DNA of 64,000 nucleotides from Variovorax sp. PBL-E5 (GTDB taxonomy: Bacteria; Pseudomonadota; Gammaproteobacteria; Burkholderiales; Burkholderiaceae_C). This document shows, one piece after another, positions 3,770-59,228 of the stretch. How positions within the stretch are numbered: the stretch's first letter is position 1; each line of letters starts with the position of its first letter. The position numbers and the translations under genes are program-made. The notes below the pieces were generated by a model. The model was not told the origin of the DNA. It did not search any database and saw only the letters and a program-made list of their open reading frames with translations. The stretch is from the NCBI RefSeq assembly GCF_901827185.1, contig NZ_LR594672.1, forward strand, positions 1 to 64,000. Reading direction: 5' to 3'.

Positions 3770-3791
3770 TTTAAAGCCTCTTTCTACTCTG
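3770..3791 (+). promoter_or_regulatory. Bipartite plasmid promoter motif upstream of dinG
   Basis: TTTAAA (3770-3775) and CTACTC (from 3784) are spaced as in the recurrent TATAAA-N9-CTAYACGG element found before many genes of this window. The match of the second block is partial. Confidence 0.5.
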
Positions 3792-3826
3792 TCGCAAGGT
3801 TGGGCCTTCTCGGGCCCTGGTAACTA

Positions 3827-5983
3827 TTGGACAGTATGGGACAGGTCATTCCAATCGCAAACGCAAGCCGCCTCGAATCATCCGACGCGGCTTTTACCTT
3901 CATCGACGAGTGCTACGAGCGGCTTGGCCAGCTCCCCGGCTTCATCGTCCGCGACGGTCAGGTTGAGTTGTCTCGGCAGGTTTGCCGTGCAATGGTGGCC
4001 GACGAGCCCATCGCTGCCGAGGCACCCACCGGCACCGGAAAGACCATCGCCTACTTGGTCGGCGCAATCGCTGCCTCGGAAAAGCTGCGGACCACAAAGG
4101 AGGTCCCGGTCGTCATCGCGACAGCGACGGTTGGCCTCCAAACCCAAATCATGCAGGGCGACCTTCCAACGCTGGTCAAGGCGCGCATTGTTCAAAGCGA
4201 GCGGGACGCGGTCGTGGCCAAAGGCCGCGGTCGCTATTTCTGCGTCAACTCGGCCGAGCGCATTTCCAACCAGGGCGACGCGGAAAACCAATTCGACTTC
4301 TTCGACCAGGGCTCCAACGAGAACGTCGATGTGTCCGTCGACGTGAAGTCAATGCTCGACCACTGGCGCGGCGGCGCCTGGAACGGGGACGTCGACAGCT
4401 ACCCGGACAAGACACCGGGCAGTTGGAAGGAAGTGGCAGCCAAGTCCGAGACCTGTCTCGGTCATAAGTGCGAGTTCCACAGCGAGTGCCCCTTCCTGGC
4501 GTCGCGCCGGGTCCTGTCGGAAGCCAAAATCATCGTGGCCAACCACGACCTTGTCTTGGCTGACCTGGCCATGGCCAAGGAAAGCCCCACCGATGCTCTG
4601 TTCCCCGGCGGCCGCTATCTCCTCGTTTTTGACGAGGCCCATCATCTGCCTGACAAGGCAATCGACGTAGGCTCGGCAAACCTCGTGCTCGACGACTGCG
4701 TTGCCAACCTCGGTCGGATGGCCGGCTTCTCGAAGGGGTGGCAGCGCAAGGGGGAGCTGGTGCGCCTGTTCGAGAAGGCCAAGCTCAGCGCGCACGATTT
4801 CGACACCGGTGGCCTGGTGAACGGGCTCGCTGGCTTGAAGGACTCCCTGTCGACCATCACGGTGGAGCCGGAGACCAATCAGTATCGCTTCCCGGCCGGA
4901 AAGCTCGACACCTCCGTGCTGAAGGCCGCGACCCATGCGCTGGACCATGCGCGGCTCTTGCAAGAGAGCATCAAGGAGGCCAGCGCGGCCCTCAAGAAAA
5001 CGAATCTTCCGGAGAAGAGCCCGGAATTGAAGGGGCCGATAGGCGAGCTCCTGTACCAGTGCGCCTTCTTCGGCTCGCAGCTGTCATCCATCGTCAAGGG
5101 GCTCGAGCTGTTCTCTGCGCCGGACCGGGCAGTTCGCTGGGTGTTCAAAGGCGGCACGCCGGAGGTGGCGAGCATTCACGTGTCGCCGCTCGAAGGCGCA
5201 GACGTCCTGCGTCGCCTGCTGTGGGACAGCGAGCGGGCCATCGTCGCGATGGTGTCGGCAACGCTTCAGGATTTCGACGGGTTTGACCGCTTCCGGGCAC
5301 GCGTCGGTGTCGGTGACGTGCTGCGCACGATGAAGCTCGACCCCATCTTCCCTTACCGCAACAACACCATCGAGCTCATCGACATGAAGTACAGCCCGCG
5401 CCAAGATGAACGGGAGAAGTACATCGAGGAGCTGCAGCTGAACATGCCGGCAAATATCGATGCGTCCGAGGGAACTCTCATCCTGTTTCCATCGCGCTCG
5501 TTGATGAACGCGCTGCTGCCGACATTGAACAAGCACTTCGGAAACGCGGTTCTTGCTCAGGGCGACCTTGGCATCAAGGAACTGATTCATGAGCACAAGG
5601 ACCGCATCGACCGGGGACGGGGCAGCATCCTGTGCGGCCTGGCAACAATGGCGGAGGGCCTCGACCTTCCCGGCGCCTACTGTGTGAACGTCATCATCTG
5701 CGCGATTCCTTTCGCAGTCCCGACCTCGCCTGTCGAGCAGGAGCTCGCCGAGGTCTTGGGCAAGGAGTACTTCGCCCAACGTGCGATGCCCGACGCACTG
5801 ACCAAGCTCATCCAGATGGTGGGCCGCCTGATGCGCCGTGAATCGGACAGGGGCCGAATCGTGGTCTTCGACAAGCGGCTCATCTACACCCAGTGGGGCC
5901 GAAAGATGCTGGAGGCCCTGCCAGGCTTTCGCAAACGGTCGATGCCTGCTTTGCGGCTGCCGCGGCCTGTCGCCGTCAAGTAG
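3827..5983 (+). CDS. dinG: DinG/XPD-family superfamily 2 helicase with iron-sulfur cluster
   Basis: This 718-aa ATP-dependent 5'-3' DNA helicase has Walker A EAPTGTGKT near residues 65-73, a DEAH box (FDEAHH, about 268-273), a VSATL motif and a C-terminal motif VI (QMVGRLMRR). Cysteines after RYF and in ETCLGHKCEFHSEC form the four-Cys iron-sulfur site typical of DinG and XPD. DinG resolves R-loops and replication barriers, and plasmid homologues may serve replication or transfer. The frame opens with TTG at 3827, but ATG at 3836 is equally possible because neither has a strong ribosome-binding site. It is transcribed alone. Confidence 0.9.
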   Translation: MDSMGQVIPIANASRLESSDAAFTFIDECYERLGQLPGFIVRDGQVELSRQVCRAMVADEPIAAEAPTGTGKTIAYLVGAIAASEKLRTTKEVPVVIATATVGLQTQIMQGDLPTLVKARIVQSERDAVVAKGRGRYFCVNSAERISNQGDAENQFDFFDQGSNENVDVSVDVKSMLDHWRGGAWNGDVDSYPDKTPGSWKEVAAKSETCLGHKCEFHSECPFLASRRVLSEAKIIVANHDLVLADLAMAKESPTDALFPGGRYLLVFDEAHHLPDKAIDVGSANLVLDDCVANLGRMAGFSKGWQRKGELVRLFEKAKLSAHDFDTGGLVNGLAGLKDSLSTITVEPETNQYRFPAGKLDTSVLKAATHALDHARLLQESIKEASAALKKTNLPEKSPELKGPIGELLYQCAFFGSQLSSIVKGLELFSAPDRAVRWVFKGGTPEVASIHVSPLEGADVLRRLLWDSERAIVAMVSATLQDFDGFDRFRARVGVGDVLRTMKLDPIFPYRNNTIELIDMKYSPRQDEREKYIEELQLNMPANIDASEGTLILFPSRSLMNALLPTLNKHFGNAVLAQGDLGIKELIHEHKDRIDRGRGSILCGLATMAEGLDLPGAYCVNVIICAIPFAVPTSPVEQELAEVLGKEYFAQRAMPDALTKLIQMVGRLMRRESDRGRIVVFDKRLIYTQWGRKMLEALPGFRKRSMPALRLPRPVAVK

Positions 5984-6007
5984 CAAAGGAGCCGCGGCGA
6001 GCCGCCG

Positions 6008-6030
6008 CATAAAAGGGGCGCTCTATACGG
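6008..6030 (+). promoter_or_regulatory. Bipartite plasmid promoter motif
   Basis: CATAAA (6008-6013) is followed by CTATACGG (6023-6030). It lies 36 bp before the first gene of the envelope-protein operon at 6067 and matches the recurrent element. Confidence 0.65.
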
Positions 6031-6066
6031 GGCACTGTCTTGACTTGCCCGCAAGGGCTGCCCCTC

Positions 6067-6459
6067 ATGCTTCACAAAGAATTCTTTGGCCTCATCTTCC
6101 TGGCGTTCGTCGCCTGGATTTTCTTGGCCGCATCGCCGGAGAAGCGCATCGAACGGGGCTGCGCTCCGATTGCCTGGGTCGGGAACGCAACCACGTCGTT
6201 GTCTTCGCTGGTGGTCCCCTCACAGCAGACGAAGGTTCAAGGGTGGTTCAACAACCTCGGCTACGGCTGCCGCTACGTGACCTGGCGCCTCATCTACCAG
6301 GACGCCTACAACGAGTGGCTCGCTACCCAGGGCCTCAGCCCTGACGCGAAGAAGCCGGCCGACGACGCTGCTGCTAACCCGGCGCAAAAGGCCGCCTCCG
6401 CGCCCGCTTCATCCACCCCCGCAGCGCCGGCCGCGCCCGCCGCCCCGGAGAAAAAATGA
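6067..6459 (+). CDS. Small membrane-anchored protein of the transfer region
   Basis: This 130-aa protein is not recognised as a known family. It has one N-terminal hydrophobic segment (FFGLIFLAFVAWIFLAA), a middle part with two cysteines and many aromatic residues (WFNNLGYGCRYVTWRLIYQ), and an Ala/Pro/Ser-rich tail that is probably disordered. ATG 6067 is preferred over an upstream TTG because AAGGG lies about 10 bp before it. Its stop overlaps the start of the DsbA-like gene (ATGA), so it is probably an inner-membrane or periplasmic partner in secretion-system assembly. Confidence 0.65.
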   Translation: MLHKEFFGLIFLAFVAWIFLAASPEKRIERGCAPIAWVGNATTSLSSLVVPSQQTKVQGWFNNLGYGCRYVTWRLIYQDAYNEWLATQGLSPDAKKPADDAAANPAQKAASAPASSTPAAPAAPAAPEKK

Positions 6460-8676: not shown

Positions 8677-8697
8677 TATAAACCCATCGCTATACGG
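8677..8697 (+). promoter_or_regulatory. Bipartite plasmid promoter motif upstream of traA
   Basis: TATAAA (8677-8682) and CTATACGG (8690-8697) form one of the best copies of the recurrent element. It lies 86 bp before the pilin gene and probably drives the main tra operon. Confidence 0.7.
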
Positions 8698-8782
8698 TAG
8701 GCACTCGCTGCCTGAACCAACGGCTCCGGCTCTCGAGCGCGTGTTTGCAAACACATCACCTCAACGAAGCAAGGAGCTTTAA

Positions 8783-9091
8783 ATGACTTTTCTCCGTACC
8801 CTGAAGGGCAAGGCCCTCGCTGCGCTGGCTGTGGCCGGTGCCTCCCCGGCGGTGTTCGCTGGCCAGTTGGACCAGAACGACGCGTTCTACAGCTTCTGGA
8901 AGACCGTGGACGGTTGGACCACAGGCGCCCTGGGCGTTGGCCTGGCCACCACCATGCTGCTCATGGGCGGCGCCATCGGCGTTGCCAAGAACAGCCCCAT
9001 GCCCGCGCTGACGGGTATCGCTGGCGGTGCTTTCCTGCACTGGGGCCCCAGCATCATCCAGCAAATCATGGTGGGTGGCGGCCTCATCTAA
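8783..9091 (+). CDS. traA: Conjugative pilin precursor (TraA/VirB2-like)
   Basis: This 102-aa precursor has a signal peptide with likely cleavage after AVFA (residue 26). The mature part of ~76 residues has two hydrophobic segments (GALGVGLATTMLLMGGAIGVA and LTGIAGGAFLHWGPSII), as in F and VirB2 pilins. It should be the major subunit of the conjugative pilus. It is first in the tra operon, and AGGAG lies just upstream of the ATG. A hairpin after the gene (9108-9127) may raise pilin transcript over the downstream genes. Gene order before traL, traE, traK and traB supports the call. Confidence 0.85.
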   Translation: MTFLRTLKGKALAALAVAGASPAVFAGQLDQNDAFYSFWKTVDGWTTGALGVGLATTMLLMGGAIGVAKNSPMPALTGIAGGAFLHWGPSIIQQIMVGGGLI

Positions 9092-9107
9092 GCGCGGCCT
9101 GACGAGT

Positions 9108-9127
9108 AGGGGCGGGAGACCGCCCCT
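9108..9127 (+). terminator. Attenuator-like hairpin after traA
   Basis: AGGGGCGG-GAGA-CCGCCCCT is followed by a pyrimidine-rich stretch. Between the pilin gene and traL it would partly terminate or stabilise the pilin mRNA. Confidence 0.6.
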
Positions 9128-9164
9128 ATCTCTCTTCTCTCTTTCCTTCCCCCGGAAGTAGCGC

Positions 9165-9458
9165 ATGGACCAAGAGTCGCACGTCTTTCCCTTCGACCTC
9201 GAGTCGCCCATCCCAATCATGTTTTGGGACCCCTTGGAGTTCACGCTTTCACTGATTCTGATGGGTTTCGGAATCATCGCGCACATGTGGATTCTCGGTG
9301 TCTTGATGGGCGGCGGCGTACTCATTGGCGCCCGGTATCTCAAGCGTGGCTCCAAGCGCGGAGCGATGCAGCACTTTTTGTGGGCGCACGGGCTACAGCT
9401 GGACGCGCCGCTGAAGACCAGGTTTAAACCCGCGTGGCTTAACGACTTTACCGAGTAA
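9165..9458 (+). CDS. traL: TraL pilus-assembly membrane protein
   Basis: This 97-aa inner-membrane protein of the F-type system corresponds to the VirB3 position. Two adjacent hydrophobic stretches (about residues 22-55) follow the conserved-type PIPIMFWDPLEF segment. The basic C-terminal part (KRGSKRGAMQHFLWAHG) should be cytoplasmic. Size and place between traA and traE agree with TraL of F and SXT-like elements. Confidence 0.85.
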   Translation: MDQESHVFPFDLESPIPIMFWDPLEFTLSLILMGFGIIAHMWILGVLMGGGVLIGARYLKRGSKRGAMQHFLWAHGLQLDAPLKTRFKPAWLNDFTE

Positions 9459-9475
9459 GCCACCAGGCCTAACAC

Positions 9476-10066
9476 ATGTCAGACCCGAAACAAAACAACT
9501 ACCTGGACAGCGTCGCAAACGCGTTCAAAACCGCGCAGGCCTGGAAGAGCGCCACCTACACCCTTGGTGTGGCTGTCATCTTCCTGGTCAGCGCGCTCAT
9601 CTATCAGCAGCGCAACACGCCTGTGGTTCTCGTGCCGCACGACTTGGCCGCCTCCGGCACCCGTGTCACCGTGACCACCAACGGCGAGATTCGCGGCACG
9701 AGCTCCGAGTACATGGCGAACGCGGCCATGTCCGATGCCTCACTCATCCTGAATTTCATTCCGGACAACGTCGTTACGCAAACGACCCGGTTCCTGAACC
9801 GGCTCACGGAGGACCTGTATGGCGAACAACGCGAGCCACTGCTCGCGCAGGCCGAGGACTTCAAGCGTCGGGGGGTGACCCAGTCGTTCTATCCGTCCGA
9901 AGTCAAGGTCTCTCCGGACGGCAAGCGCGTCCAAATCGATGGCACCCAGTTGCGCTGGGTCGGCGGCAAGGAAACGCTGCGCGCCAAGCTGACTTACGTC
10001 ATCACCTACAAGGTTTACAAGGGGTACTTGCATGTCGCCGACCTGCGTCAACAACAAGACAAATAA
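9476..10066 (+). CDS. traE: TraE (VirB8-like) secretion channel protein
   Basis: This 196-aa inner-membrane protein has one transmembrane segment near residues 25-43 and a periplasmic domain that corresponds to VirB8 in the F-type apparatus. The length is close to F TraE (188 aa). Its 3' end overlaps traK by 35 bp, so the two are translationally linked. It should connect the inner-membrane complex to the TraK-TraB-TraV core. Confidence 0.87.
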   Translation: MSDPKQNNYLDSVANAFKTAQAWKSATYTLGVAVIFLVSALIYQQRNTPVVLVPHDLAASGTRVTVTTNGEIRGTSSEYMANAAMSDASLILNFIPDNVVTQTTRFLNRLTEDLYGEQREPLLAQAEDFKRRGVTQSFYPSEVKVSPDGKRVQIDGTQLRWVGGKETLRAKLTYVITYKVYKGYLHVADLRQQQDK

Positions 10067-10829
10067 GCAGCCACTCGCCGTGGCTCTGGCACTCGTCGCT
10101 GGGCTTGCGCTCTCGGCTACGGCATTCGCTGCCCCCGCGAAGAAGCAAGTCGAGCCCGTCAAGGGTGCCACCATCGAACTGCCCGAGCCGGGCGTCGTGA
10201 CGGTGTCCGACTACGAATTCAATACCTTCGTCTTCAGCGAACCTGCAAAGCGCTTCATCTTCCCGGCGGGCTCGCCTGTCTCCGGCGACCCAATCACGCT
10301 CTCGGGCGGTACCCAGGTACTGCTGCAGTTCACGCGTGGTGCCGACCGCCCGGTACAGATGGTGGTGGAGCTGCAAAGCGGCAAGGTAGAGAAGTTGCGC
10401 GTGGTGCCCAAGGCTGTGCCAGGCATCACTTACCCAGTGAATGGTGCTCGACTCAAGCCCCCGTCTGCCGCGCGCACCCAAGGCCCTCTCGTGAGCGACG
10501 GACAAAAGGGGTCCTCGCCGCGCGGCGCGGATATCGAGCTGCTGAAGACGCTGACGACTGGCGGCGAACCGCCGAGCGGCTTCGAGCCCGTGAGCCTCCC
10601 CCGGCCGACCCGTTTCGACAAGTTCACGGTCGTACCAATGGCGGGCTGGAGCGACGGCGCCAAGCGAATCTTGGTTTTCTCGCTGGTTGCTGCACAGGAC
10701 CAGACCGCCGTGGTCAGCCCGAATCAGTTCTACCGTGAAGGCATCAACGCTGTGCTGCTGGACGGCGACACCGTGGACGCAAACAGCAGCCCGCAACTGT
10801 TCGTAGTGGAGGAGCTCGGCGATGAGTGA
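10032..10829 (+). CDS. traK: TraK (VirB9-like) core complex protein
   Basis: This 265-aa exported protein has a signal peptide ending near AFA at residue 33. The following beta-rich domain (VVTVSDYEFNTFVF, KRFIFPAGSPV) is typical of TraK, the VirB9/secretin-like part of the outer-membrane core. The start ATG lies inside the end of traE. It overlaps traB by 8 bp. It should bind TraV and TraB in the envelope-spanning channel. Confidence 0.87.
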   Translation: MSPTCVNNKTNKQPLAVALALVAGLALSATAFAAPAKKQVEPVKGATIELPEPGVVTVSDYEFNTFVFSEPAKRFIFPAGSPVSGDPITLSGGTQVLLQFTRGADRPVQMVVELQSGKVEKLRVVPKAVPGITYPVNGARLKPPSAARTQGPLVSDGQKGSSPRGADIELLKTLTTGGEPPSGFEPVSLPRPTRFDKFTVVPMAGWSDGAKRILVFSLVAAQDQTAVVSPNQFYREGINAVLLDGDTVDANSSPQLFVVEELGDE

Positions 10830-12201
10830 CGACAAAAAGCCAGGACTGTTCATCAACAACAAGTCGAAGGCGGCACCCGCGTCCGCATCGGCCATCAAGG
10901 TCGGCGGCAAGCAAAAGAACGTCCAACGTCGCTGGCTCTATGTCGCCGTCGGCCTGGCGGGCGTCGCCGTCATCAGCACGGCCGCCTTCTCCGACAAGAA
11001 GTCGAACTTGCCCGATGGCCCGAAGAAAGAGGCGGCCATGATTAACGTGACCCCGCCCAACGCGGACAAGGTGGCGTTCGAGGCCAAGTTCGGCAAGGAC
11101 TTGGAGGGCTTCAAGCAAATGCTGGAGCAGCTCAAGTCCGACAACCTCTCGCTGAAGGAGCGCGTCGCGCAGCAAGACCTTGCTGCCCGGAATGCGGCTG
11201 CCAACGGCGGCACCGGTGCAAGGTCGAATACGCCCCTGCCTGCCGGCGTCGTGCCCCCACCCAGCCAAGGCAACAGTGGCGGCATCGGCTCGCTCGCAGC
11301 ACCAGAGGCTCCCCCGCCGCCTCCGGCTGCGCCCGCGCGGCCGGCAGGGGGGATTCCCATTCCCGCAGGCCCCGGTGCGTCTGGCGCTTCGCTGCCTCCC
11401 ATTACGCCAACGATGCAATCCGCCCCGGTCGCACCGATGGTCTTCGAGGTGAAGGACACCAGCGCTGCAGTCGCACCCGCAGGAGGCCCCTCCGTCAACT
11501 CGAAGATTTCGTACAAGAAGAACGAGTCTGCCGGGCTCCTGCCGGCAGGCGGCTTCGCACCCGTCGTGCTGCTCAACGGCCTGGACGCGGGTACGTCGGT
11601 GACGACGCAATCGAATCCGATGCCTGTTCTGATGAACGTGACGGAGCAGGCCACGCTGCCTGGTGCCGCCAAGTACCGCCTCAAGAACTGCTTCGTGCTG
11701 GGCAACGGCTACGGCGACCTGTCTGCCGAGCGGGTGTACGTGCGGTTCAATCGCCTCTCGTGCGTGGATAAGGGCGACCGCCTGATTCTGTCGCAGGAAG
11801 TCGCAGGCTACGTGGTGGACAGTGACGGGAAGCTAGGGCTTCGCGGCAAAGTGATGGACCGTCAAGGCGCACGCCTTGGCAAGGCGCTCCTCGCTGGTTT
11901 TGCACAGGGTCTCTCCGGTGCACTGGGTCAGGCCCAGGGCACCGTGACGTCCAACCTGTCGACAGGCTCCACTATGAGCTCGTTGGGCGGTGCGGCGGCG
12001 TTGCGGGCGTCCGGCCTCTCTGGCGCTCAAACGGCAGCGCAGCAAATCGCGGAGTTCTACCTGAAAGAGGCGCAAGCCATCTTCCCGGTGGTGTCCATCG
12101 ACACCGGACGAACCGGGACCATCGTCTTCACCAACAGCGTCTCGCTGAACTGGGGAACGGGTGAGTCGCAGTTCGTTCAAGAAGTCAAGCCGAACAACTG
12201 A
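10822..12201 (+). CDS. traB: TraB (VirB10-like) envelope-spanning protein
   Basis: This 459-aa protein has a transmembrane helix near residues 37-52, a short coiled-coil-like stretch near residues 85-115 and a Pro/Gly/Ala-rich linker (about 120-195). The C-terminal VirB10-type domain starts near residue 215 and contains the pattern SKISYKKNESAGLLPAGGFAPVVLLNGLDA. Length matches F TraB (475 aa). It links inner and outer membranes in the transfer channel. Its stop codon overlaps the start of the DsbC-domain gene by one base. Confidence 0.92.
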   Translation: MSDDKKPGLFINNKSKAAPASASAIKVGGKQKNVQRRWLYVAVGLAGVAVISTAAFSDKKSNLPDGPKKEAAMINVTPPNADKVAFEAKFGKDLEGFKQMLEQLKSDNLSLKERVAQQDLAARNAAANGGTGARSNTPLPAGVVPPPSQGNSGGIGSLAAPEAPPPPPAAPARPAGGIPIPAGPGASGASLPPITPTMQSAPVAPMVFEVKDTSAAVAPAGGPSVNSKISYKKNESAGLLPAGGFAPVVLLNGLDAGTSVTTQSNPMPVLMNVTEQATLPGAAKYRLKNCFVLGNGYGDLSAERVYVRFNRLSCVDKGDRLILSQEVAGYVVDSDGKLGLRGKVMDRQGARLGKALLAGFAQGLSGALGQAQGTVTSNLSTGSTMSSLGGAAALRASGLSGAQTAAQQIAEFYLKEAQAIFPVVSIDTGRTGTIVFTNSVSLNWGTGESQFVQEVKPNN

Positions 12202-12500
12202 TGGCCACGGCGGCGCCACCACCCGCTGCAGCCGTGATGCCCGCCGCCGAAGTTGGCGGGCGTCTGACTCAGCTTGAAGCGGACGAGGTTCTCTCGCGCT
12301 TGCGCGGCACCCTGCGCGGCACCCGCTTCCTGAAGGCGTGGCCCGCCGCAGTGCCAGGGCTCGTCACGCTGCAACTAGAAAACGGAGAGGTTGCCTATGC
12401 GGATAAGTCCGCTCGCTACTTCTTGATGGGGGTGGTGTTCGACACCGCTACTGGCAAGGGCTTGGACCGCCAGATGGACCCCACCGACACGAATGAATGA
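12201..12500 (+). CDS. Stand-alone DsbC N-terminal (dimerisation) domain-like protein
   Basis: This 99-aa protein resembles only the N-terminal dimerisation domain of DsbC/DsbG (LKAWPAAVPGLVTLQLENG, then EVAYADKSARYFLMGVVFD). No thioredoxin fold or CxxC motif follows. No signal peptide is seen. In SXT and IncA/C-type clusters a complete dsbC lies near traB, traV and traC, so the position matches while the catalytic half is missing. It could be a reduced adaptor for the DsbA-like protein encoded at 6456, or simply a remnant. It is translationally coupled to traB and stays in frame with an ordinary tra-operon layout. Confidence 0.65.
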   Translation: MATAAPPPAAAVMPAAEVGGRLTQLEADEVLSRLRGTLRGTRFLKAWPAAVPGLVTLQLENGEVAYADKSARYFLMGVVFDTATGKGLDRQMDPTDTNE

Positions 12501-12516
12501 AAGACCCGGAGTTCCT

Positions 12517-13155
12517 ATGAAACGCCTCCTTATTGCTGCCTCCGTGACCGCCTTGCTGTCGGCCTGTGCTGGCTTGGGCCACGTCGAATACGAATGCGCG
12601 CTCGCCGATGTGCCCGCCGCGAAATGCGCCTCGATGGAGGATGCGTACAAGCTTTCGACTAAAGGGAAGGGCGCAGGCAATCACAAACAATCCGTCTTTG
12701 AAAGCCAGCCTCGCACCGCCAAGACGGGCGAGCAGTCGCCTGAGGCTGCGCAGCCATTCTTCCGCGGGGAAGCGTCGAACATGCCCGACGCGGCGCAGCA
12801 GGGGCTGCCGGTGTTCAAACAACCGAAAGTAATGCGCGTCTGGGTTGCGCCGTACGTCGATGCCGACGGAAACCTGCGGTCTGGCGAGTACACGTACTTC
12901 GCCACACCTGGCGCCTGGAACTACGGCAGCCTGACCAAGCCTGGCGCAGCGGCCGCAGGCGGGATGTTTGAGCCCACCAAGCCCAATCAGCTGGGATTCA
13001 CCCCCAAGGAAGTGAACTCCACCAACCGTGCCACGACGCCGAGCGGTCCGTCAAAACCGCCCGAGTCAAAGGCGGCTACCGGAACGACAACTTCGTCAGC
13101 ACCTGCACCTTCGACATCGAACGGCATTACGCAACCGTACCAGCGACTCAACTGA
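12517..13155 (+). CDS. traV: TraV outer-membrane lipoprotein
   Basis: This ~212-aa lipoprotein of the F-type core corresponds to VirB7. The signal peptide ends in the lipobox LLSAC with Cys17. The conserved TraV-type N-terminal motif GLGHVEYECALADVPAAKC includes two further cysteines that could be disulfide-bonded. ATG 12517 was chosen over ATG 12493 because GGAG precedes it and it puts the signal peptide at the N-terminus. The C-terminus is Pro/Ser/Thr-rich. It should anchor the TraK-TraB core in the outer membrane. Confidence 0.87.
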   Translation: MKRLLIAASVTALLSACAGLGHVEYECALADVPAAKCASMEDAYKLSTKGKGAGNHKQSVFESQPRTAKTGEQSPEAAQPFFRGEASNMPDAAQQGLPVFKQPKVMRVWVAPYVDADGNLRSGEYTYFATPGAWNYGSLTKPGAAAAGGMFEPTKPNQLGFTPKEVNSTNRATTPSGPSKPPESKAATGTTTSSAPAPSTSNGITQPYQRLN

Positions 13156-13194
13156 ACGTCGGCAGCGCCACCACAGCCCACGTAGGAGATATCT

Positions 13195-15807
13195 TTGAAA
13201 CAAGCAGGCAAGTTGCTCAAGCGCCTCACTGCGTTCGTAAAGCCGGACGCCCCCATGGCGGTCCCCGCCACGATGTCGGCGGCGGCAGCCATGACCGACC
13301 GGGAATCGTTCTCGTCGCTATTCACGTATCGGTTCTTCGATGACGAGACGAATTTCATGTACCTCGATGACGGGCACGGGCCGGCCATCGGCTTCCTGCT
13401 CGCCATCTCACCGCTCAATGTCGCCGGCGTGAACGCCGAAGGTGCTATCGAGGCCGCCATGGTGGGTCTCCCGCCCGAGTCGGTCTTGCAATTCGGCAAA
13501 CTCGTGACCCCGCAGGTCGAGGGCTTCGTGAACACCTGGGCGAACGCGCGCCTCGCCAAAACGAACAACCCGCTACTGCGACAAATCGTTGAGCGCCGCC
13601 GCGACTTCCTGCTCACCACCGCCCTGGGCCCATCGATGCTGCCCCGCACGCGCATGCATCCGCGCATGATGCAGTGGTACGTCGCCGCGCGCGTTCCATT
13701 CACGGGTGACGTGAAAAGCGAAGTCGAAATGCGTGCCTTTCGCCAGACGATGCGTGATTGCCGCAACACGGTCGCCAGCGCGTTGTCGGCCGTGGGCATG
13801 CAATCGATGGAAATGGCTGAGGTCGACATCAAGTTCCTGCTCTGGGAGCTTCTGAATCCGCACCTCGAGCCCTCCGAACGTATTTTCGAGGCGACGCCTG
13901 GCCAACCGGTCTCGGCGGACCTCATGTCCCGCAATACCCGTGTCAGCGTTTTGCGCGACGGCCGCATCGGCTTCAGCAAGCACGCAGGGGATACGAACGC
14001 GGACGGCGAGCACGTGCCTGACGTTGTCGTGAGTTGCCTCACGGTCGATGCGGCGCCCCATACGCACTACCTGCCGAGCATGGCGCGCACCCTCGGGGAC
14101 CCGATGTCCTGGGACGACCGTATCACGTGTCCATACTGGGCATACACGACGGTCCACATTCTCCATCCCGATGACTCGAAGGATGACCTGCTGGGCAAGT
14201 TCGGCATGCTGAACAAGCAGACGATGTCTGAGAGCCAGTGGTTCCGTTCGATGATGGGCCACCTCTACGAGCGTCGGGACCGCGCAGAAGCGTTGCTCAA
14301 GGAAACGAGCAAGGGGCACCGCTTGGTGCGCGCCTACACGGGCATCAACCTGTACACGCCGCCCGATGAGGCCCGACAGCAGACCGAGCGCGTGAAGGGC
14401 TTTTTCCGAGGCGCCGGATTCCGAATTTCTGACGAGCCCTACATCTCCCTGCCGGTGTTCATCGCGTCGCTGCCGTTGCAGTATGTCCCGGCGATGGACC
14501 CTCCGAACCGCGGGATGCAGCGGGCTTGGCTGATGAGTTCCATCAACGCGGCCTCCATGATGCAAGTCCAGGGTGACTGGCGCGGTACGGGTCCGGAGCA
14601 CGCGGGCCTACTGCTGACTTCCCGTTCGGGCCAACTTGCAACTTTCGACCTGCTGTGGAAGGACTCCACGAACTACAACTTCGTCGTGGTAGCCGCCTCT
14701 GGCTCGGGCAAGTCATTCCTGACCAACGAGCTGGTCTGCGACTTCCTTTCCCGCGGCGGTATCGCGCGCATTATCGACGTGGGGCGGTCGTACCACCGCT
14801 TCTGTACCGTCATGGGCGGTGAGAACCTGGTCTTCGACGCGGAGAAGCCGCGGTCGATGAACCCCTTCACCGGCATCAACACCGTCGATGACCTGAACGA
14901 GCTCATGCCGATGCTCAAGGAGCTGCTGCGCCTGATGGCATTCCCCCTGACCAAGTCGGAGGATGTGCCTCAGTTCCAGTATCAGCTGCTCGAAATCGTG
15001 GTCGAAAAGGCATGGCGAAAGTTTGCTGCAGCTACCGAACTCAAGCACGTCGTCGAAGAGCTGGAAGTCTGGGACGGCGCGTCGCCGGAGCTGGCCCACC
15101 AGCTCGCGATGCAGCTCATGGCGTATTCCCATGGCCGCTACAGCGCGTGGTTCACCGGCCCGCGTGAGGTTTCCTTCAACAAGCCTCTGGTCGTGATTGA
15201 ACTCGAAGAGCTCAAACAGGACCCACAGCTCCAGTCGGTCGTGCTGCAGCTGGTGATGTTCCAGTGCACGAAGGAGATGTACCTCTCCGACCGGGCCCTC
15301 CCGAAGCTGCTGGCAATCGACGAAGCCTGGGACTTGATGGGCGGCCTCAGCACCGGCAAGTTCATCGAAACCGCCTTCCGCCGGATGCGTAAGTACAACG
15401 GCGTCGCCGGGGTCATCACGCAGTCCTTCCAGGATTTTACGAAGTCCGAGGCAGCAATGGCTGCGGTGGAAAACGCCGCGTGGCAGTTCATTCTTCACCA
15501 GAAGAAGGAGTCCATCGACTACGCGGTCGACCACAAGCGAATTTCGGCGGACGAGGCCACCATCGAGCTCATCAAGTCCGTGAAATCCGGCGAGGGGTTT
15601 TCCGAGGTCTTCGTGCGCAATGACGCCGGCGCGGGCGTGTACCGCTTCGTGACGGATAAACACTCCTACTACACGTTCTCGTCGAGGGCGACCGACATCA
15701 TCAGGCTGAACAAGCTCACCGAGTCAGGCATGACGCTGGAGGACGCCATCGACAAGCTGGCAATGGAGGATTACGCGCGAATGTGGGGTGGCCAAGACGC
15801 CGCCTGA
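13195..15807 (+). CDS. traC: TraC (VirB4-like) ATPase, TTG start
   Basis: This 870-aa cytoplasmic ATPase energises pilus assembly and is almost the same length as F TraC. Walker A ASGSGKS is at about residues 501-507 and the Walker B strand LLAIDEAWDLM at about 704-714. TraC_F-type N-terminal regions precede them. TTG 13195 is taken as start because AGGAG lies 7 bp upstream and the next in-frame ATG is 60 bp later without a site. The gene is 39 bp after traV and before trbI. Confidence 0.93.
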   Translation: MKQAGKLLKRLTAFVKPDAPMAVPATMSAAAAMTDRESFSSLFTYRFFDDETNFMYLDDGHGPAIGFLLAISPLNVAGVNAEGAIEAAMVGLPPESVLQFGKLVTPQVEGFVNTWANARLAKTNNPLLRQIVERRRDFLLTTALGPSMLPRTRMHPRMMQWYVAARVPFTGDVKSEVEMRAFRQTMRDCRNTVASALSAVGMQSMEMAEVDIKFLLWELLNPHLEPSERIFEATPGQPVSADLMSRNTRVSVLRDGRIGFSKHAGDTNADGEHVPDVVVSCLTVDAAPHTHYLPSMARTLGDPMSWDDRITCPYWAYTTVHILHPDDSKDDLLGKFGMLNKQTMSESQWFRSMMGHLYERRDRAEALLKETSKGHRLVRAYTGINLYTPPDEARQQTERVKGFFRGAGFRISDEPYISLPVFIASLPLQYVPAMDPPNRGMQRAWLMSSINAASMMQVQGDWRGTGPEHAGLLLTSRSGQLATFDLLWKDSTNYNFVVVAASGSGKSFLTNELVCDFLSRGGIARIIDVGRSYHRFCTVMGGENLVFDAEKPRSMNPFTGINTVDDLNELMPMLKELLRLMAFPLTKSEDVPQFQYQLLEIVVEKAWRKFAAATELKHVVEELEVWDGASPELAHQLAMQLMAYSHGRYSAWFTGPREVSFNKPLVVIELEELKQDPQLQSVVLQLVMFQCTKEMYLSDRALPKLLAIDEAWDLMGGLSTGKFIETAFRRMRKYNGVAGVITQSFQDFTKSEAAMAAVENAAWQFILHQKKESIDYAVDHKRISADEATIELIKSVKSGEGFSEVFVRNDAGAGVYRFVTDKHSYYTFSSRATDIIRLNKLTESGMTLEDAIDKLAMEDYARMWGGQDAA

Positions 15808-15866
15808 CGCGCGAGAGTCCATCAGAACGCCCGGCGATGCCGGGCGTTTGCTTTCAAGACGTGAAC

Positions 15867-16388
15867 ATGAACGACGACACCACTTCACAAGGCGAAATTT
15901 TCAAGCTGCTCGCTCCCTATCTCGGGGGTACGCTTTTGCTTGCCGTGATGGTCGTAGTGCTCCTGCTGCGCTTCTCTCCGTTGGGACAAGGCGGCGGCGG
16001 GACATCCACGGTGAACGCGGTGACCTTCGATGTGGTGAAGTTTGCCAATGCGCAGCGCGCAGTCGCCTCCGCGTTCCTCAAGCCCGGCAGCGCGGACGTC
16101 GCCGAGGCGAACGAAATCCTCCTGGGACTTACCGAACGCACCCGCAAGACCATTGAGGAGGTGGCAGGGGAGGGCACGCTGGTGCTCGTGAAGCAATCGG
16201 TGGCCCACGGCGTGTCGCGCGACATCACCGACGACGTGCTGAAGAAACTCGGCATGCCGACCAATGCCCCGACGCGAGACGCCGTGGCATACACGCTGGA
16301 CGTTGCACCGACCATGCTGATGGGGCCGCTGACCAGCCGTCGCCCGCAGACGACGGTGGCCCCCAGCGGTGAAAGCGTTATCCCGTGA
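15867..16388 (+). CDS. trbI: TrbI-type (F) membrane protein
   Basis: This ~173-aa protein has one N-terminal transmembrane helix (GGTLLLAVMVVVLLLRFSPL) and a periplasmic domain similar to F TrbI, which influences pilus length and retraction. The F protein is 128 aa, so this one is longer by a C-terminal extension. Gene position after traC is the same as in F. ATG 15867 is preferred, although the open frame extends upstream. Its TGA overlaps the GTG of the signal-peptidase gene. Confidence 0.75.
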   Translation: MNDDTTSQGEIFKLLAPYLGGTLLLAVMVVVLLLRFSPLGQGGGGTSTVNAVTFDVVKFANAQRAVASAFLKPGSADVAEANEILLGLTERTRKTIEEVAGEGTLVLVKQSVAHGVSRDITDDVLKKLGMPTNAPTRDAVAYTLDVAPTMLMGPLTSRRPQTTVAPSGESVIP

Positions 16389-16909
16389 TTTCGCGCGACG
16401 CCTTCGAGCGCTTCTTCATCATCCTCGCATGCTCTGTGCTGGCGATTCATGTGTACGTGAAGGTCGTCCCGTACTCGCTGTCCTGGAACGTCACCGCATC
16501 GATTCCACGGGGACTCTATTTGTCCACCGAGGCGACAACGACGCCCCTGGTGCGCGGTCAGATTGGCTGCTTCGCCTATTCGGCACCGACTTGGGCGGAG
16601 GCGCGCCACTACTTCCCCGATGGGTTTCAGCTGTGCAAGTACGCGCTGGGCTTGCCTGGTGACGTGGTCGAGGTCGATGCGTCCCTTCGCGTGTCCTCCG
16701 CTGCGGGGAAGCACGCCGACGTCGCCTTTGCATCGGCCGACAGCCGCGGACGCCCGATGCCGCGTGCAGAGGGCCTGGCCGGAGCGATTCCCCGCGGGGA
16801 GTACCTGCTGCTGGCACCCGCCCACACGAACAGCCTCGACTCGCGCTACCTGGGACGTATTGCCCACGAGCGCCTCACCCGCACCCTTGTTCCCCTCTTG
16901 ACCTGGTAA
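16385..16909 (+). CDS. TraF-type conjugative signal peptidase (S26 family)
   Basis: This 174-aa membrane protease belongs to the TraF/LepB S26 family. It has an N-terminal transmembrane segment, the catalytic serine in SIPRGLY (Ser39), the general-base lysine in CKYALGLPGD (Lys85) and a late GEYLLLAP-type box. In IncP plasmids TraF processes and cyclises the pilin; in F-like clusters an S26 enzyme often follows trbI. It starts with GTG overlapping the trbI stop codon. The likely substrate is the TraA pilin at 8783. Confidence 0.88.
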   Translation: MISRDAFERFFIILACSVLAIHVYVKVVPYSLSWNVTASIPRGLYLSTEATTTPLVRGQIGCFAYSAPTWAEARHYFPDGFQLCKYALGLPGDVVEVDASLRVSSAAGKHADVAFASADSRGRPMPRAEGLAGAIPRGEYLLLAPAHTNSLDSRYLGRIAHERLTRTLVPLLTW

Positions 16910-16913
16910 CCAC

Positions 16914-17756
16914 ATGGCCACCGCGAAAGCTGACGCAGCAGACGTCGAAAAAGATGAAAAGGCGCAGCGCCTGCCCTTCCTCGAGGACGGCGAGCTGGCG
17001 ACCGTCGTTCGCGTTGAACTGAAGACCCGCAAAACGCGAGCCCCCAAGCCCTATACGGAGGGAACGCTGCTCGACGACATGAAGGGCGCCGCGAAGTTCG
17101 TGGAAGACGCGACTCTTCGCAAGGCCATCAGGACCAAGGAAGCCTCTGGCATCGGCACTGCCGCGACCCGTGCGGAAACCATCGAGAAGCTCAAGGCCGT
17201 CAAGTACATCAAGGCCTCGGGAAAGACCATCACCGCGACCCCGAAGGGTCTCGACTTCATCACCTGGCTTGAATCCATCATGCCCGAGCTCACGGACGTT
17301 GCGCTCACGGCACGCTGGCAAGCAGAACTTGATGGCGTTGCCGTTTCAGGTGGCGGCAAAGCCTTTGAAGCCGGCGTCGCAGACAACGTGCGACAGCTGG
17401 TTTCTATATTTCAAGTGGCGCCTTCAATGCGCCTCGCATCCACCTCCTCAACTGAAGGCTCATCAAGCATGACTGACACCCCCAAACGTGCGAACAAACC
17501 CAGCGACAAGATGCTGGAGTTCGCGAAGCGCATCGCCGACAAGGTCGGCAAGAAGGTCCCTGACGACGTCATGGCCGACTGGGACGCCTGCAAGGCGTTC
17601 ATCGACGAGAACAAGGACGCGGCCATGCGTCCGAGCGAAAAGCAGATTGCGTTCGCCGGCCGCATCGCCAAGGAGAAGGGCCTGACTGTGCCTGATGACG
17701 CGCTGAAGGACGGCCGCGAACTGTCGCGCTGGATTGACGAGAACATCAGCAAGTAA
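16914..17756 (+). CDS. C-terminal fragment of topoisomerase III (TopB-like)
   Basis: This 280-aa protein matches only the C-terminal part of TopB: YTEGTLLDDMKGAAKFV, then IGTAATRAETIEKLK, then the TPKGLDFI and ALTARWQAELD segments. The Toprim domain and the active-site tyrosine region are absent, so it cannot be a topoisomerase on its own. The last ~80 residues hold two copies of a motif of the form PS-[DE]-K-x(2-4)-FA-x-RIA followed by VPDD, as on some plasmid TopB proteins. ATG 17469 could start this domain separately. It follows the signal-peptidase gene after 4 bp. It is either a decayed topB or a DNA-binding adaptor. Confidence 0.7.
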   Translation: MATAKADAADVEKDEKAQRLPFLEDGELATVVRVELKTRKTRAPKPYTEGTLLDDMKGAAKFVEDATLRKAIRTKEASGIGTAATRAETIEKLKAVKYIKASGKTITATPKGLDFITWLESIMPELTDVALTARWQAELDGVAVSGGGKAFEAGVADNVRQLVSIFQVAPSMRLASTSSTEGSSSMTDTPKRANKPSDKMLEFAKRIADKVGKKVPDDVMADWDACKAFIDENKDAAMRPSEKQIAFAGRIAKEKGLTVPDDALKDGRELSRWIDENISK

Positions 17757-17775
17757 CTCGCCTGCCTCCGCATGC

Positions 17776-17805
17776 AAAGCCGGCCCCGTGCCGGCTTTCG
17801 CTTTT
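17776..17805 (+). terminator. Rho-independent terminator of the traA-topB' operon
   Basis: AAAGCCGGC and GCCGGCTTT pair around a 5-base loop and are followed by a T-rich end. Confidence 0.85.
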
Positions 17806-17868
17806 GGGTCGCTACACCGGGAGGACATCAACGCCCTGTGCAAGGGGGCAATCATCACAAGGACAAAC

Positions 17869-18354
17869 ATGACAACCGCGACCGAATCTCGACTGGAAGA
17901 GTTGCTCGACCTGAAAGACGTCGAACTAGAGGAAGCCGAAGAGCGCATCCGCACACTCGAGAGAGAAATCGACTTTGGCGTCGACTGGATGCGGCACGAA
18001 CCGCTTCCGCGTGACGAGTCGGGGCTTCCGCTCCCCCGCATCGAACTCCGGGTGATACCGAACACCCACTACTGCTTCGAAGCCGAGGTCACCTTGGCGT
18101 TGGCGCAGCGCGATGGCAGCGTCAGGTTCGTTCCGCTCTCATACAGCAAGGTGTCAGGCAGAGCGGTCGACCTCGAGCAATTTCCGACCTCCGGAGTGCT
18201 TTCCGACCGGCAAATCTCTGACCTGCCCGGGCTGGTGAACGACGCCTGTTTTCACATGGACAAGACCGGCATCGGCGCTTTCGTAGTGCTGGACGACAGG
18301 CGGCGCTATCGAATAACGAGCTTGCGCCCCCTGGCGATGGAGGCCGTGGCCTAA
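17869..18354 (+). CDS. Protein of unknown function with N-terminal coiled coil
   Basis: This 161-aa protein is not recognised. Residues ~5-35 are Glu/Leu-rich and likely form a coiled coil (LEELLDLKDVELEEAEERIRTLE). The rest is a mixed alpha/beta soluble domain without obvious catalytic motifs. ATG 17869 has AAGGA upstream and is preferred to upstream in-frame codons, which run through the preceding terminator. It is flanked by terminators on both sides and has no clear bipartite motif, so its promoter is uncertain. Confidence 0.6.
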   Translation: MTTATESRLEELLDLKDVELEEAEERIRTLEREIDFGVDWMRHEPLPRDESGLPLPRIELRVIPNTHYCFEAEVTLALAQRDGSVRFVPLSYSKVSGRAVDLEQFPTSGVLSDRQISDLPGLVNDACFHMDKTGIGAFVVLDDRRRYRITSLRPLAMEAVA

Positions 18355-18368
18355 CCCCGTCATTCCTC

Positions 18369-18395
18369 GAAAGCCCCGCATCGCGGGGCTTTCTC
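18369..18395 (+). terminator. Rho-independent terminator
   Basis: GAAAGCCCCGC and GCGGGGCTTTC form an 11-bp stem after the 161-aa gene, followed by a T/C-rich stretch. Confidence 0.85.
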
Positions 18396-18445
18396 TTGCT
18401 GGCAGCAGTTCACTCGTTGGGCCGGGCGCGCCTTAAACCGCACCG

Positions 18446-18467
18446 GATAAAGCCGTCGCTATACGAC
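18446..18467 (+). promoter_or_regulatory. Bipartite plasmid promoter motif
   Basis: GATAAA (18446-18451) is followed by CTATACGA (18459-18466), 24 bp before the dNMP kinase start codon. Confidence 0.65.
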
Positions 18468-18490
18468 CCGCAACCTTTTGGAGGTCATAT

Positions 18491-19231: not shown

Positions 19232-19251
19232 CGCCTCAACGCCTGATTTTG

Positions 19252-19284: not shown

Positions 19285-19285
19285 G

Positions 19286-19308: not shown

Positions 19309-19331
19309 TCAAGCTCACCCACCTCAGCCTA

Positions 19332-45911: not shown

Positions 45912-45954
45912 TATAAAAACTGATATTCGTTTCTTAGTCGACTTTCTATACGGA
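45912..45954 (+). promoter_or_regulatory. Promoter region of the leaderless pilin gene
   Basis: CTATACGG (45946-45953) matches the second block of the recurrent motif. TATAAA is present (45912-45917) but 35 bp upstream, farther than usual. A leader of ~80 bp follows. Confidence 0.4.
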
Positions 45955-46033
45955 GTATCAGCAGGCTGCGAGTGACGCATGTGCGTCAACCGACCGGCTG
46001 GTGAATTTTCCACTCCATCAAGGATTCGACACC

Positions 46034-47368: not shown

Positions 47369-47428
47369 ATTGAAGACTCCAAACCTGGTTCGGTTGCTTG
47401 TGTTGCTTGAGGGTTGATGCTGCTTGCA

Positions 47429-47448
47429 CGTATAGGAACGCGTTTAGC
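47429..47448 (-). promoter_or_regulatory. Bipartite plasmid promoter motif, leftward
   Basis: Read leftward, GCTAAA (47448-47443) is followed by CTATACG (47435-47429). It overlaps the 3' end of the GspF-like gene and lies 60 bp before the pilin-like gene. Confidence 0.62.
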
Positions 47449-53574: not shown

Positions 53575-53640
53575 GGGGGGTGCGTACGGTAGGAAAAATG
53601 GAGGAGGGACCCAGTAGGCAGGGCCTTCGGGCAGAGAAGC

Positions 53641-53664
53641 ATTATAGCTCCCAAGCGTTTTAAA
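53641..53664 (-). promoter_or_regulatory. Promoter region of recA, variant of bipartite motif
   Basis: Read leftward, TTTAAA (53664-53659) is followed by CTATAATG (53647-53640). Spacing is 2-3 bp longer than usual, and the second block coincides with a consensus -10 hexamer TATAAT. Confidence 0.45.
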
Positions 53665-53756
53665 GTCCAGCAAAGTTGCGTTTTAGATGAGTCGCCTTGA
53701 GGGCGCCGGTGCCGCGTCCCTACACCTTGCAGGACATATTTCTCAAGGAGCAACAA

Positions 53757-58228: not shown

Positions 58229-58339
58229 GGTCTGTTTCGGGCGAGGTGCCCTGGAGTTCCTGATGAGGCGTGTAGGGACCCCGGGGGTCGCAGAGGCAAC
58301 AGAAAGGCCCCGTGAGGCGCAATGCCTGCGGGGCCGAGC

Positions 58340-58416: not shown

Positions 58417-58607
58417 AATTCTTGGAGGCTTCAAGCGTCTCCGACACTTCGTGTACGCACGGGTTTTATCCGCATATTCCACAACCTCGACGCGCTTTTG
58501 CGAGGTTTCAGGGGCCAGCCACCTTCCCGGGCAGCTCGCCGAAAATCGCGGCCGCCTACGGGTCCGAGCTCCTGGATTGTGTGCTGCCGCGCTGCGACGG
58601 CACACGT

Positions 58608-58633
58608 GGAAAAGAGCGCCCGAAGGCGCTCTT
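58608..58633 (-). terminator. Rho-independent terminator of the phosphatase gene
   Basis: Read leftward, AAGAGCGCC and GGCGCTCTT pair around TTCG and are followed by TTCC. Confidence 0.85.
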
Positions 58634-58647
58634 GAGAATCGCAGCTG

Positions 58648-59130
58648 CTACCGCTTACCCGCGGCCTTGTCCAGCAAGCGCATGAGGCGCAGGTTGGCGT
58701 ATTCGGTACTCCGACCGTTGGCAATCGGTAGCCAAAGATTCACCGAAATCCATTCGGCCACCGCGGCGGACCTGCTGATGCCGCCATGGCAGTGCACAAC
58801 CAGCTTCAACTTCTCGTCGCTGAACCTGTGCAGCGTCAGGAAGTCGAAGATTCGCTTCGCATCCGTGAGCGTTGGCACCAGCTCGCCGGCCCCCTGGCAA
58901 AAGCGCGCGTGCTCTTCTGGTGTTGGCTCGTCTGGCCAAGCTCCGGGCGCAGCCAGCTTCAACTCTTCGTACGTGTCCTCGAAATTGAGAACAAGGACGC
59001 TTCGAAACCCACCGAGTGGGGGCCTGGCGTATTCCTCCGACCTGTCAAGGATGGAGATGACCAGGGTGTCAAGCGCAGGGCGCACACGCTTCATGCCATC
59101 AAGCGACAGAAAAACCAGTTCTTCAATCAT
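58648..59130 (-). CDS. Protein tyrosine/dual-specificity phosphatase-like
   Basis: This 160-aa protein has the Cys-x5-Arg phosphatase loop VHCHGGISRSA (Cys114, Arg120), after a predicted Asp-containing region (WPDEP) that could supply the general acid. The N-terminal half has beta strands in the DSP arrangement (SVLVLNFED). Such short phosphatases occur in phages and plasmids and may act on proteins or nucleotides. AGGAGG precedes the ATG at 6 bp. The element CTACACC lies upstream (about 59153-59147, leftward) without the first promoter block. Confidence 0.75.
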   Translation of the reverse strand: MIEELVFLSLDGMKRVRPALDTLVISILDRSEEYARPPLGGFRSVLVLNFEDTYEELKLAAPGAWPDEPTPEEHARFCQGAGELVPTLTDAKRIFDFLTLHRFSDEKLKLVVHCHGGISRSAAVAEWISVNLWLPIANGRSTEYANLRLMRLLDKAAGKR

Positions 59131-59206
59131 GGGGTGTCCTCCTATGTGGTGTAGCGAGTGGAGGGCAGTGCCGGCGCTGTTAGCGCTTCGTTAGTCCGCT
59201 TCTCGC

Positions 59207-59228
59207 TATAAATGGTGTCACACACGGA
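59207..59228 (+). promoter_or_regulatory. Bipartite plasmid promoter motif
   Basis: TATAAA (59207-59212) is followed by CACACGG (59221-59227), just before the ribosome-binding site of the SLOG-like gene. Confidence 0.5.

Follow-up and report, generated by a model that had tools for sequence, protein, structure and literature searches.

A Recurrent Motif Upstream of Plasmid Genes

The 64,000-nucleotide stretch of Variovorax DNA analysed here (the window) raises the question of what a short sequence with the core CTANACG does in front of many of its genes. An earlier note on this DNA had described a two-part, promoter-like element, an A/T-rich hexamer followed by a second block, ahead of genes of mixed function, and the idea of a plasmid-wide gene set preceded by such an element was borne out. 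The window occupies positions 774189–838188, on the minus strand, of the 839,194-bp plasmid C2 of a soil Variovorax, whose genome also includes the 5.99-Mb chromosome C1. Its sequence nearly matches the beginning of plasmid 2 of Variovorax sp. SRS16 (NZ_LR594667.1, 801 kb), and plasmid 2 of WDL1 (NZ_LR594690.1, 816 kb) is a close relative; a 20-kb megablast matched only these two records in PLSDB. C2 and the SRS16 plasmid, with 468 of 483 aligned kb at 99.5–100% identity, are too similar for a conservation test between them to be informative, and the SRS16 counts given below take in the counterpart of the window and are not independent of C2. Genes were called with our own script, and the PGAP annotation of the sister plasmid was compared by eye; single genes were called by only one of the two, and several starts differ, of which 25275/25389 and 38419/38635 bear on two of the sites listed below.

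Seeded expectation–maximisation (EM) on 657 upstream regions of the SRS16 plasmid gave a 33-bp model of 13.8 bits with the consensus T-N-[G/C]-C-T-A-[C/T]-A-C-G-N4-A-G-G. This motif was found in 282 of the regions, that is, before more than two-fifths of gene starts, at a median distance of 38 bp from the start codon; with 200-bp upstream regions, the count was 300 of 657. Run from the same seed on a chromosome sample, the procedure drifted off the motif, and it did not keep it with a looser CTANA seed either. Of 389 plasmid upstream regions, 93 contained CTANACG itself; in the chromosome sample, the number was only 2 of 224. Alignment of these 93 sites revealed a T three bases before the C, a G or C right before it, and an A 11 bases after it. 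The core CTANA(C)(G), degenerate at its fourth position, is near-invariant, while the A 11 bases further on is kept in about two-thirds of the sites. No conserved -35 element was detected in the 93 aligned sites out to -60, in agreement with the earlier note. The motif is genuine, it occurs across the whole plasmid far more often than chance would allow, and its conserved part is the second block, not the A/T hexamer.

Counts of fixed patterns differ in what they convey. The sequence AAACG-N6-CTATACG had 12 matches with at most one mismatch, all on C2; with at most two mismatches there were 132 genome-wide against 202 in the control, so that the information lies in the split between C2 and C1. 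The same holds for CTATACGG, which occurs 30 times on C2 (0.84 Mb) and 28 times on C1 (5.99 Mb) and which, with a genome total of 58 against 52 for the reversed control, shows no genome-wide excess on its own. The pattern as given in the earlier note, the hexamer followed after 7–11 bp by CTAYACGG, was found five times in the window and not once in any of 100 shuffles (resampled Markov chains, as for the terminators within 23 bp considered below). The 800 kb examined of the SRS16 plasmid, in which the window region is included, also held five copies, and a 400-kb chromosome sample none.

Specificity for the Plasmid Backbone

A matrix scan against coding and chromosomal sequence, proposed in the earlier note, was run with a matrix trained on 20 stretches of C2 outside the window and applied at a threshold of at least 11 bits. 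The window contained 13 intergenic matches (2.02 per kb) and a single coding one (0.017 per kb), while in the chromosome sample 5 intergenic (0.11 per kb) and 11 coding matches (0.031 per kb) were found, far fewer for their length than in plasmid intergenic DNA. Twelve of the 13 intergenic window matches lie in sense orientation 15–120 bp before a start, the placement of those at 25236 and 38388 resting on our own starts, which differ from those of PGAP. The host chromosome does not appear to use the motif.

The motif is also rare among relatives of the host. Occurrences of TNSCTANACVNNNNAGG numbered 59 in the source genome (G000) and did not exceed 11 in any of the 398 other family members scanned, which are a sample of a larger group. 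When 100 Variovorax genomes were compared, G000 and G438 (60 occurrences) were the only two to stand out, the other 98 having between 0 and 8; in G438, a draft of about 350 contigs, most of the listed matches are located on a few contigs. Halomonas plasmids, whose TraC is about 39% identical, were considered as further carriers and rejected: two 42-kb pieces contain 13 matches of at least 10 bits, 11 of them inside genes, and the two intergenic matches have their next start 1.6 and 3.9 kb away.

Imported cargo on the same plasmids provides a natural control for specificity. None of 28 upstream regions in the imported metal-resistance island of the WDL1 plasmid has a site of at least 10 bits, and none of 17 in the catabolic and insertion sequence (IS) segment of the SRS16 plasmid has a site, one match of at least 11 bits being found elsewhere in its 34.6 kb. 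In two backbone pieces the same test gave 27 of 59 and 27 of 55 upstream regions. The share of genes with the motif is uneven along the SRS16 plasmid, falling to 4 of 39 in piece L013, 6 of 39 in piece L054 and 0 of 7 in the CRISPR region. The WDL1 island is a heavy-metal resistance region with IS1071 (NZ_LR594690.1, positions 600001–648151, piece L089), in which no promoters of the plasmid type were found.

Position, Orientation and Terminator Context

Among 220 sites of at least 10 bits, the C of the core lies 32–39 bp before the start codon in 108 and less than 28 bp before it in five, as expected if a ribosome-binding site must fit after the transcription start. Within 15–120 bp of gene starts, CTANACV shows a sense to antisense ratio of 245:67. 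At 183 sites, the base composition after the motif becomes leader-like, with G decreasing from 0.33 to 0.19 and A increasing from 0.16 to 0.26. Transcripts probably begin about 11–13 bases after the C of CTANACG.

Intrinsic terminators in sense orientation were predicted in the 100 bp upstream of 56 out of 299 sites, compared with 19 in shuffled sequence and 7 on the opposite strand. At 24 of the 299 sites (6 shuffled) the predicted terminator ends no more than 23 bp from the C, and in the two closest cases it ends 1–2 bp upstream of the core. Unless there is read-through, transcripts have to restart at the motif, as they probably do at the sites with close predicted terminators; moreover, nothing much beyond about 20 bp upstream can be required there. 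Taken together with the spacing to the start codon, the predicted terminators as little as 1–2 bp upstream make CTANACG itself the better candidate for a -10-like core. The proposal that TATAAA is the -10 box, with transcripts starting near CTATACGG, was rejected, since the A/T element is present in about one-fifth of sites and predicted terminators end as little as 1–2 bp upstream of CTANACG. Position, orientation and terminator context, along with the restriction to the plasmid, suggest that the motif serves as a promoter.

The A/T Element and Ordinary Promoters

The A/T hexamer is real but optional. A/T tetramers occur 17 to 9 bases before the C in 66 of 300 sites (22%), against 4–9% at offsets -45 to -21; the bipartite motif is therefore a true subclass of a larger class, in which the hexamer is not constant. 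The stronger the core, the lower the local A/T content tends to be (rho = -0.29, p = 3e-7; control, 0.02). In 32 of the 37 sites with [AT]AAA, its first letter, which is T in 73%, lies 11–14 bp before the C; the preceding letter is C (43%) or T (38%), and two positions further up there is a preference for G. To some degree, then, the A/T element is a second CTAAA copy upstream of CTAYA. The start-to-start spacing of the two blocks, given earlier as 14–17 bp and mostly 15, was measured as 13–16 bp, with 14 in 6 of the 11 measurable plus-strand sites.

A second element, CTAAAAYGNA, was observed in both orientations in plasmid intergenic DNA (SRS16 pieces L009–L013 and L054–L064). CTAAAA/TTTTAG occurs at 1.05 per kb in plasmid intergenic DNA compared with 0.05 in coding and 0.07 in chromosomal intergenic DNA.

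Ordinary sigma-70 promoters (TTG, 17 bp, TGNTANAAT) were found in the regions that lack the motif, 61 of 321 with a posterior above 0.5. The corresponding matrix was trained on these motif-less regions by EM seeded with the consensus TATAAT, which biases the comparison towards them; at 8 bits or more, sites of this type were counted in 65 of the 321 motif-less and 22 of 300 motif regions, with 14 and 11 after dinucleotide permutation. T occupies -7 in 98% of this class, as obtained with the TATAAT seed. Both recA and radA have promoters of this kind. The sigma-70 promoter at 40559–40587, which had been regarded as the one exception among the motif copies, was confirmed, on the minus strand and before gene 40172–40492, and it shares its exceptional standing with that of recA.

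A Proposed Private Promoter Class and Its Possible Recogniser

The explanation we favour, with a probability of about one half, is that the motif represents a private, -10-only promoter class of the backbone of this megaplasmid family, read via the host RNA polymerase by a plasmid-encoded factor. The polymerase would be brought to the 17-bp site T-N-[G/C]-C-T-A-N-A-C-G-N4-A-G-G, the first conserved T-A would melt as in a -10 box, and transcription would start around the conserved A/G, 11–13 bases after the C, producing a leader of 20–30 nt with the ribosome site. Sites with a weaker core would tend to have an A/T-rich element, often [C/T]TAAA, with its T 11–14 bp upstream of the C, as if compensating. 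The involvement of a plasmid factor is suggested by the failure of the chromosome to use the motif and by the base at -7, not by any gene in hand; this factor is putative, and none was recognised among the plasmid proteins. The dedicated regulator suggested by the earlier note is a fair inference. With less certainty, one could propose that a plasmid specificity factor unlike known sigma factors redirects the host RNA polymerase, as in phage T4 late transcription.

A more far-reaching version, which we put forward tentatively as somewhat less probable than its opposite, is that of an orthogonal programme, in which a plasmid factor of an undescribed family would steer host RNA polymerase to about 280–300 private promoters, insulating the backbone from host regulation and leaving the cargo on host-type promoters. 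Plasmids are generally taken to rely on host sigma factors. What is described here is a whole-replicon promoter-like class on a bacterial plasmid, apparently used by neither the host chromosome nor imported cargo, and our literature searches, which had most subscription journals outside their coverage, found no paper on this motif. If the explanation is true, it would offer a direct handle on how giant plasmids keep control of what they encode within a host; it would also allow the native genes of such a plasmid to be told apart by sequence and provide a defined 17-bp target for fishing out a transcription factor.

The known system that comes closest in layout is that of the T4-like late promoters. 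They consist of a short -10-only motif read by gp55; in phage Aeh1, this motif is CTAAATA and gp55 is diverged (PMC1524935). Both are -10-only motifs serving the gene set of one replicon, and the Aeh1 form starts with C-T-A at -12. However, the sequence here is CTANACG instead of TATAAATA, a gp55 homologue was not found, and the replicon is a plasmid, not a lytic phage. The motif agrees in full with neither the T4-late nor the sigma-S class. Extended -10 promoters of sigma-70 share with it the G favoured at -14 and the initial TA, and many sigma-70 promoters on the plasmid itself have the sequence GCTAAAATG or GCTATAATG, but the motif has mostly CG instead of AT at -8/-7 and lacks a -35 box. 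Regulons of plasmid- or phage-encoded sigma factors are, as generally understood, private promoter classes tied to one mobile replicon; by that comparison, the present case differs in that a sigma gene is not recognisable on the replicon and the sites number in the hundreds.

Several results weigh against the favoured explanation. Between the SRS16 and WDL1 plasmids, key positions of the motif changed in 6 of 939 cases (0.64%) compared with 82 of 5828 (1.4%) in the immediate flanks (p = 0.06), and the CTA.A core in 1 of 418 positions; however, the rate in the remaining intergenic DNA was only 0.81% (360 of 44,358), so that the footprint is not decisive. Before the tRNA array described below, the nearest minus-strand site of at least 10 bits is two annotated genes upstream. 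The compensation by A/T and the proximity of terminators would fit other promoter types too. Strong sigma-70-like sites of at least 12 bits are present in 13 of 300 motif regions and in none after shuffling, and T does occur at -7, though seldom (11 of 167 sites).

Searches for the recogniser point in the same direction. All 15 Sigma70_r2 matches at E ≤ 0.001 are on C1 and none is on the plasmid. With Sigma70_r4 at E ≤ 10, the C2 matches are all sub-threshold, the best (E = 0.0019, C2:585816) being in a frame that resembles an IS21 transposase by eye. Profiles of host sigma region 2 and of the full-length protein reached best E-values of 0.12 and 0.14 among plasmid proteins, a region-4 profile matched best to annotated IS21 transposases, and phmmer with T4 gp55 reached 0.78. 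The late-sigma families phrog_234 and phrog_12791 gave nothing at E ≤ 10, their controls matching in 7 and 1 of 14 genomes. A second large subunit of RNA polymerase was not found, PF00623 matching one chromosomal frame only, taken by eye as host rpoC.

Wider surveys were made of proteins of both sizes. Among 61 chosen long hypotheticals, no RNA polymerase match was seen in the 20 Pfam and 25 of 31 PHROG families listed. In a separate search, PF00940 (T7-type polymerase) had no match, but its control also matched nowhere. From 437 proteins of 110–280 aa, 103 were picked by helix propensity (102 of 140 listed plus one), the remainder being covered by the sigma and gp55 searches only. No convincing recogniser was found among the 103 with Pfam and PHROG (25 of 39 families listed); one of them reaches Sigma70_r4 with E = 0.0046, amid several helix-turn-helix (HTH) families of similar strength. 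Nor did a recogniser emerge when the ten top-ranked sigma-profile matches were examined by Pfam. The plasmid-encoded sigma factor that the earlier note had advised looking for was thus not recognised, and a very divergent member of the sigma-70 family may be present.

Alternative Explanations

The alternative that survives best, which we nevertheless consider unlikely, is that the sites are read directly by a sigma factor of the host, either sigma-S (RpoS) or another core one, to which the plasmid has only adapted; the plasmid genes would then be mostly stationary-phase. A chromosomal frame at C1:4378237 was taken by eye for RpoS, and the core [G/C]-C-T-A-Y-A-C fits the proposed sigma-S -10 sequence KCTAYRCTTAA, which belongs to promoters often without a -35 box (PMC5650638, PMC3923258). 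The two share C at -13, TA at -12/-11, Y at -10, A at -9 and C at -8. However, the T that is standard at -7 for both sigma-S and sigma-70 is the rarest base there: sense CTAYAC is followed by G in 93, C in 41, A in 22 and T in 11 cases (n = 167), and the motif favours A 11 bases after the C. Moreover, in 207 upstream regions of the chromosome sample there is one sense CTAYACT and one CTAYACG, a small sample for a stress regulon, and 98 of the 100 Variovorax genomes lack the motif.

An accessory RpoD-like sigma factor at C1:4188502 was rejected as the reader, since G438 has the motif without a full-length copy of the gene, while G489 has the gene at 99% without the motif. This protein (G000:C1:4188502–4190958, an 876-aa frame) has an N-terminus that looks ankyrin-like by eye. 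It occurs at 99% in one other Variovorax and at 65% and 38% in two more, the rest of the 100 genomes having only matches of RpoD/RpoS level or none.

Less probable is a plasmid-encoded activator or repressor with CTANACG as its binding site, acting together with sigma-70 at degenerate promoters. The plasmid encodes many HTH regulators, the paired TAAA and CTAYA resemble a two-part protein site, the related CTAAAAYGNA is overrepresented, in either orientation, between plasmid genes, and some motif regions hold sigma-70-like sites above the shuffled level. On the other hand, the main element lacks palindromic symmetry, favours one strand (245:67) and lies at a -10-like distance from the start codon, and the 24 of 299 sites at which a predicted terminator ends no more than 23 bp away have little room for an upstream -35 box.

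We regard it as very improbable that the plasmid's own RNA polymerase, single-subunit or very divergent, reads the 17-bp element. Promoters of phage-type single-subunit polymerases have a layout like that of a compact site with a built-in start, and the presumed start AGG and the two cases of terminators 1–2 bp upstream are consistent with this, but PF00623 matches the host frame only and the 61 long hypotheticals gave no polymerase match in the families listed. Least credible of all is an RNA-level element in 5' leaders, acting on translation or stability with promoters further upstream, which would account for the fixed distance to the start codon and recalls the shared 5' end once proposed, but predicted terminators end within 23 bp upstream at four times the shuffled frequency (24 of 299 sites against 6) and the base composition shifts after the motif, not before it.

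Sites in the Window

The proposed class of -10-only promoters is represented in the window by the sites listed in Table 1. The seven copies that the earlier note had ranked as good are all present, with 8.9–14.2 bits by the matrix trained on plasmid DNA outside the window. Of its eight further copies, only that at 38377 (11.7 bits) exceeds 8 bits; those at 34695 (7.5) and 56245 (7.3) fall below, and the scores of those at 7599, 50191, 53664, 59207 and 3770 range between 4.1 and -9.4, the one at 53664 falling inside the sigma-70 promoter of recA. Its list had overlooked 9 of the 13 intergenic window sites of at least 11 bits, including the best ones (63043, 59141 on the minus strand, and 53717).

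Table 1. Core elements (candidate promoters) and ordinary sigma-70 promoters in the window. Terminators are predicted; distances to them are upstream of the C of the core.
Feature	Position	Strand	Score	Downstream gene	Remarks
Core promoter element	6020–6036	+	10.2 bits	6067, 44 bp	A/T element 6008–6013
Core promoter element	8687–8703	+	10.8 bits	traA (8783), 93 bp	A/T element 8677–8682
Core promoter element	17809–17825	+	12.8 bits	17869, 57 bp	Absent from the earlier list
Core promoter element	18456–18472	+	10.4 bits	18491, 32 bp	A/T element 18446–18451
Core promoter element	19297–19313	+	14.2 bits	traF (19332), 32 bp	A/T element 19286–19291; terminator ends 15 bp upstream
Core promoter element	25236–25252	+	13.4 bits	25275 (own call), 36 bp	PGAP start in sister gene 25389; A/T element 25223–25228
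Core promoter element	38388–38404	+	11.7 bits	38419 (own call), 28 bp	PGAP start 38635; ACTAAAC at 38377
Core promoter element	39532–39548	+	13.8 bits	Dihydrofolate reductase gene (39577), 42 bp	Terminator ends 22 bp upstream
Core promoter element	40603–40619	-	12.3 bits	40172–40492, 124 bp	Shares intergenic region with sigma-70 promoter of that gene
Core promoter element	40639–40655	+	8.9 bits	40680, 38 bp	A/T element 40628–40633
Core promoter element	45943–45959	+	12.8 bits	46034, 88 bp	
Core promoter element	47422–47438	-	13.3 bits	46955–47368, 67 bp	Upstream GCTAAACG copy at 47448–47441
Core promoter element	53717–53733	+	14.8 bits	Gene with kinase, phosphoesterase and RNA-ligase domains (53757), 37 bp	
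Core promoter element	58262–58278	-	12.9 bits	57785–58228, 47 bp	Terminator ends 22 bp upstream
Core promoter element	59141–59157	-	17.1 bits	58648–59130, 24 bp	
Core promoter element	62948–62964	-	13.7 bits	62340–62927, 34 bp	
Core promoter element	63043–63059	+	19.2 bits	63079, 33 bp	Best in the window
Sigma-70 promoter, TTGACT-N17-TATAAT	40559–40587	-	18.4	40172–40492	
Sigma-70 promoter, -10 TATAAT	53637–53669 (derived from -10 distance)	-	21.6	recA	Contains site 53664 of the earlier note

Other Features of the Plasmids

The gene content of the plasmid includes an F-type transfer system, type IV pilus genes, RecA, RadA, SecA, SecB, gyrase A, SmpB, a DNA polymerase, ligases, an RNA ligase, a tRNA array and many hypotheticals. 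PLSDB types both sister plasmids as non-mobilizable, yet the window is annotated with a broad F-type transfer gene set at 8783–25133. No viral contigs carrying TraC were found, and among GTDB contigs the pilus-region protein was found only in WDL1.

The tRNA array comprises 42 called tRNA genes, one with an unreadable anticodon, all on one strand of a 50-kb piece (L010:8340–25181, corresponding to 58.3–75.2 kb of the SRS16 plasmid), and begins in the window; tRNA-ligase genes are annotated at other places on the plasmid. Phage-like content of the SRS16 plasmid, a conjugative-type replicon, includes PHROG matches to RIIB, tRNA nucleotidyltransferase and dCMP deaminase, and an RNA ligase family protein, RNases HI and HII and thymidylate synthase are also present. 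Two giant genes of this plasmid, at 236770–246699 (about 3300 codons) and 453259–462789 (about 3200 codons), are annotated as choice-of-anchor D domain proteins.

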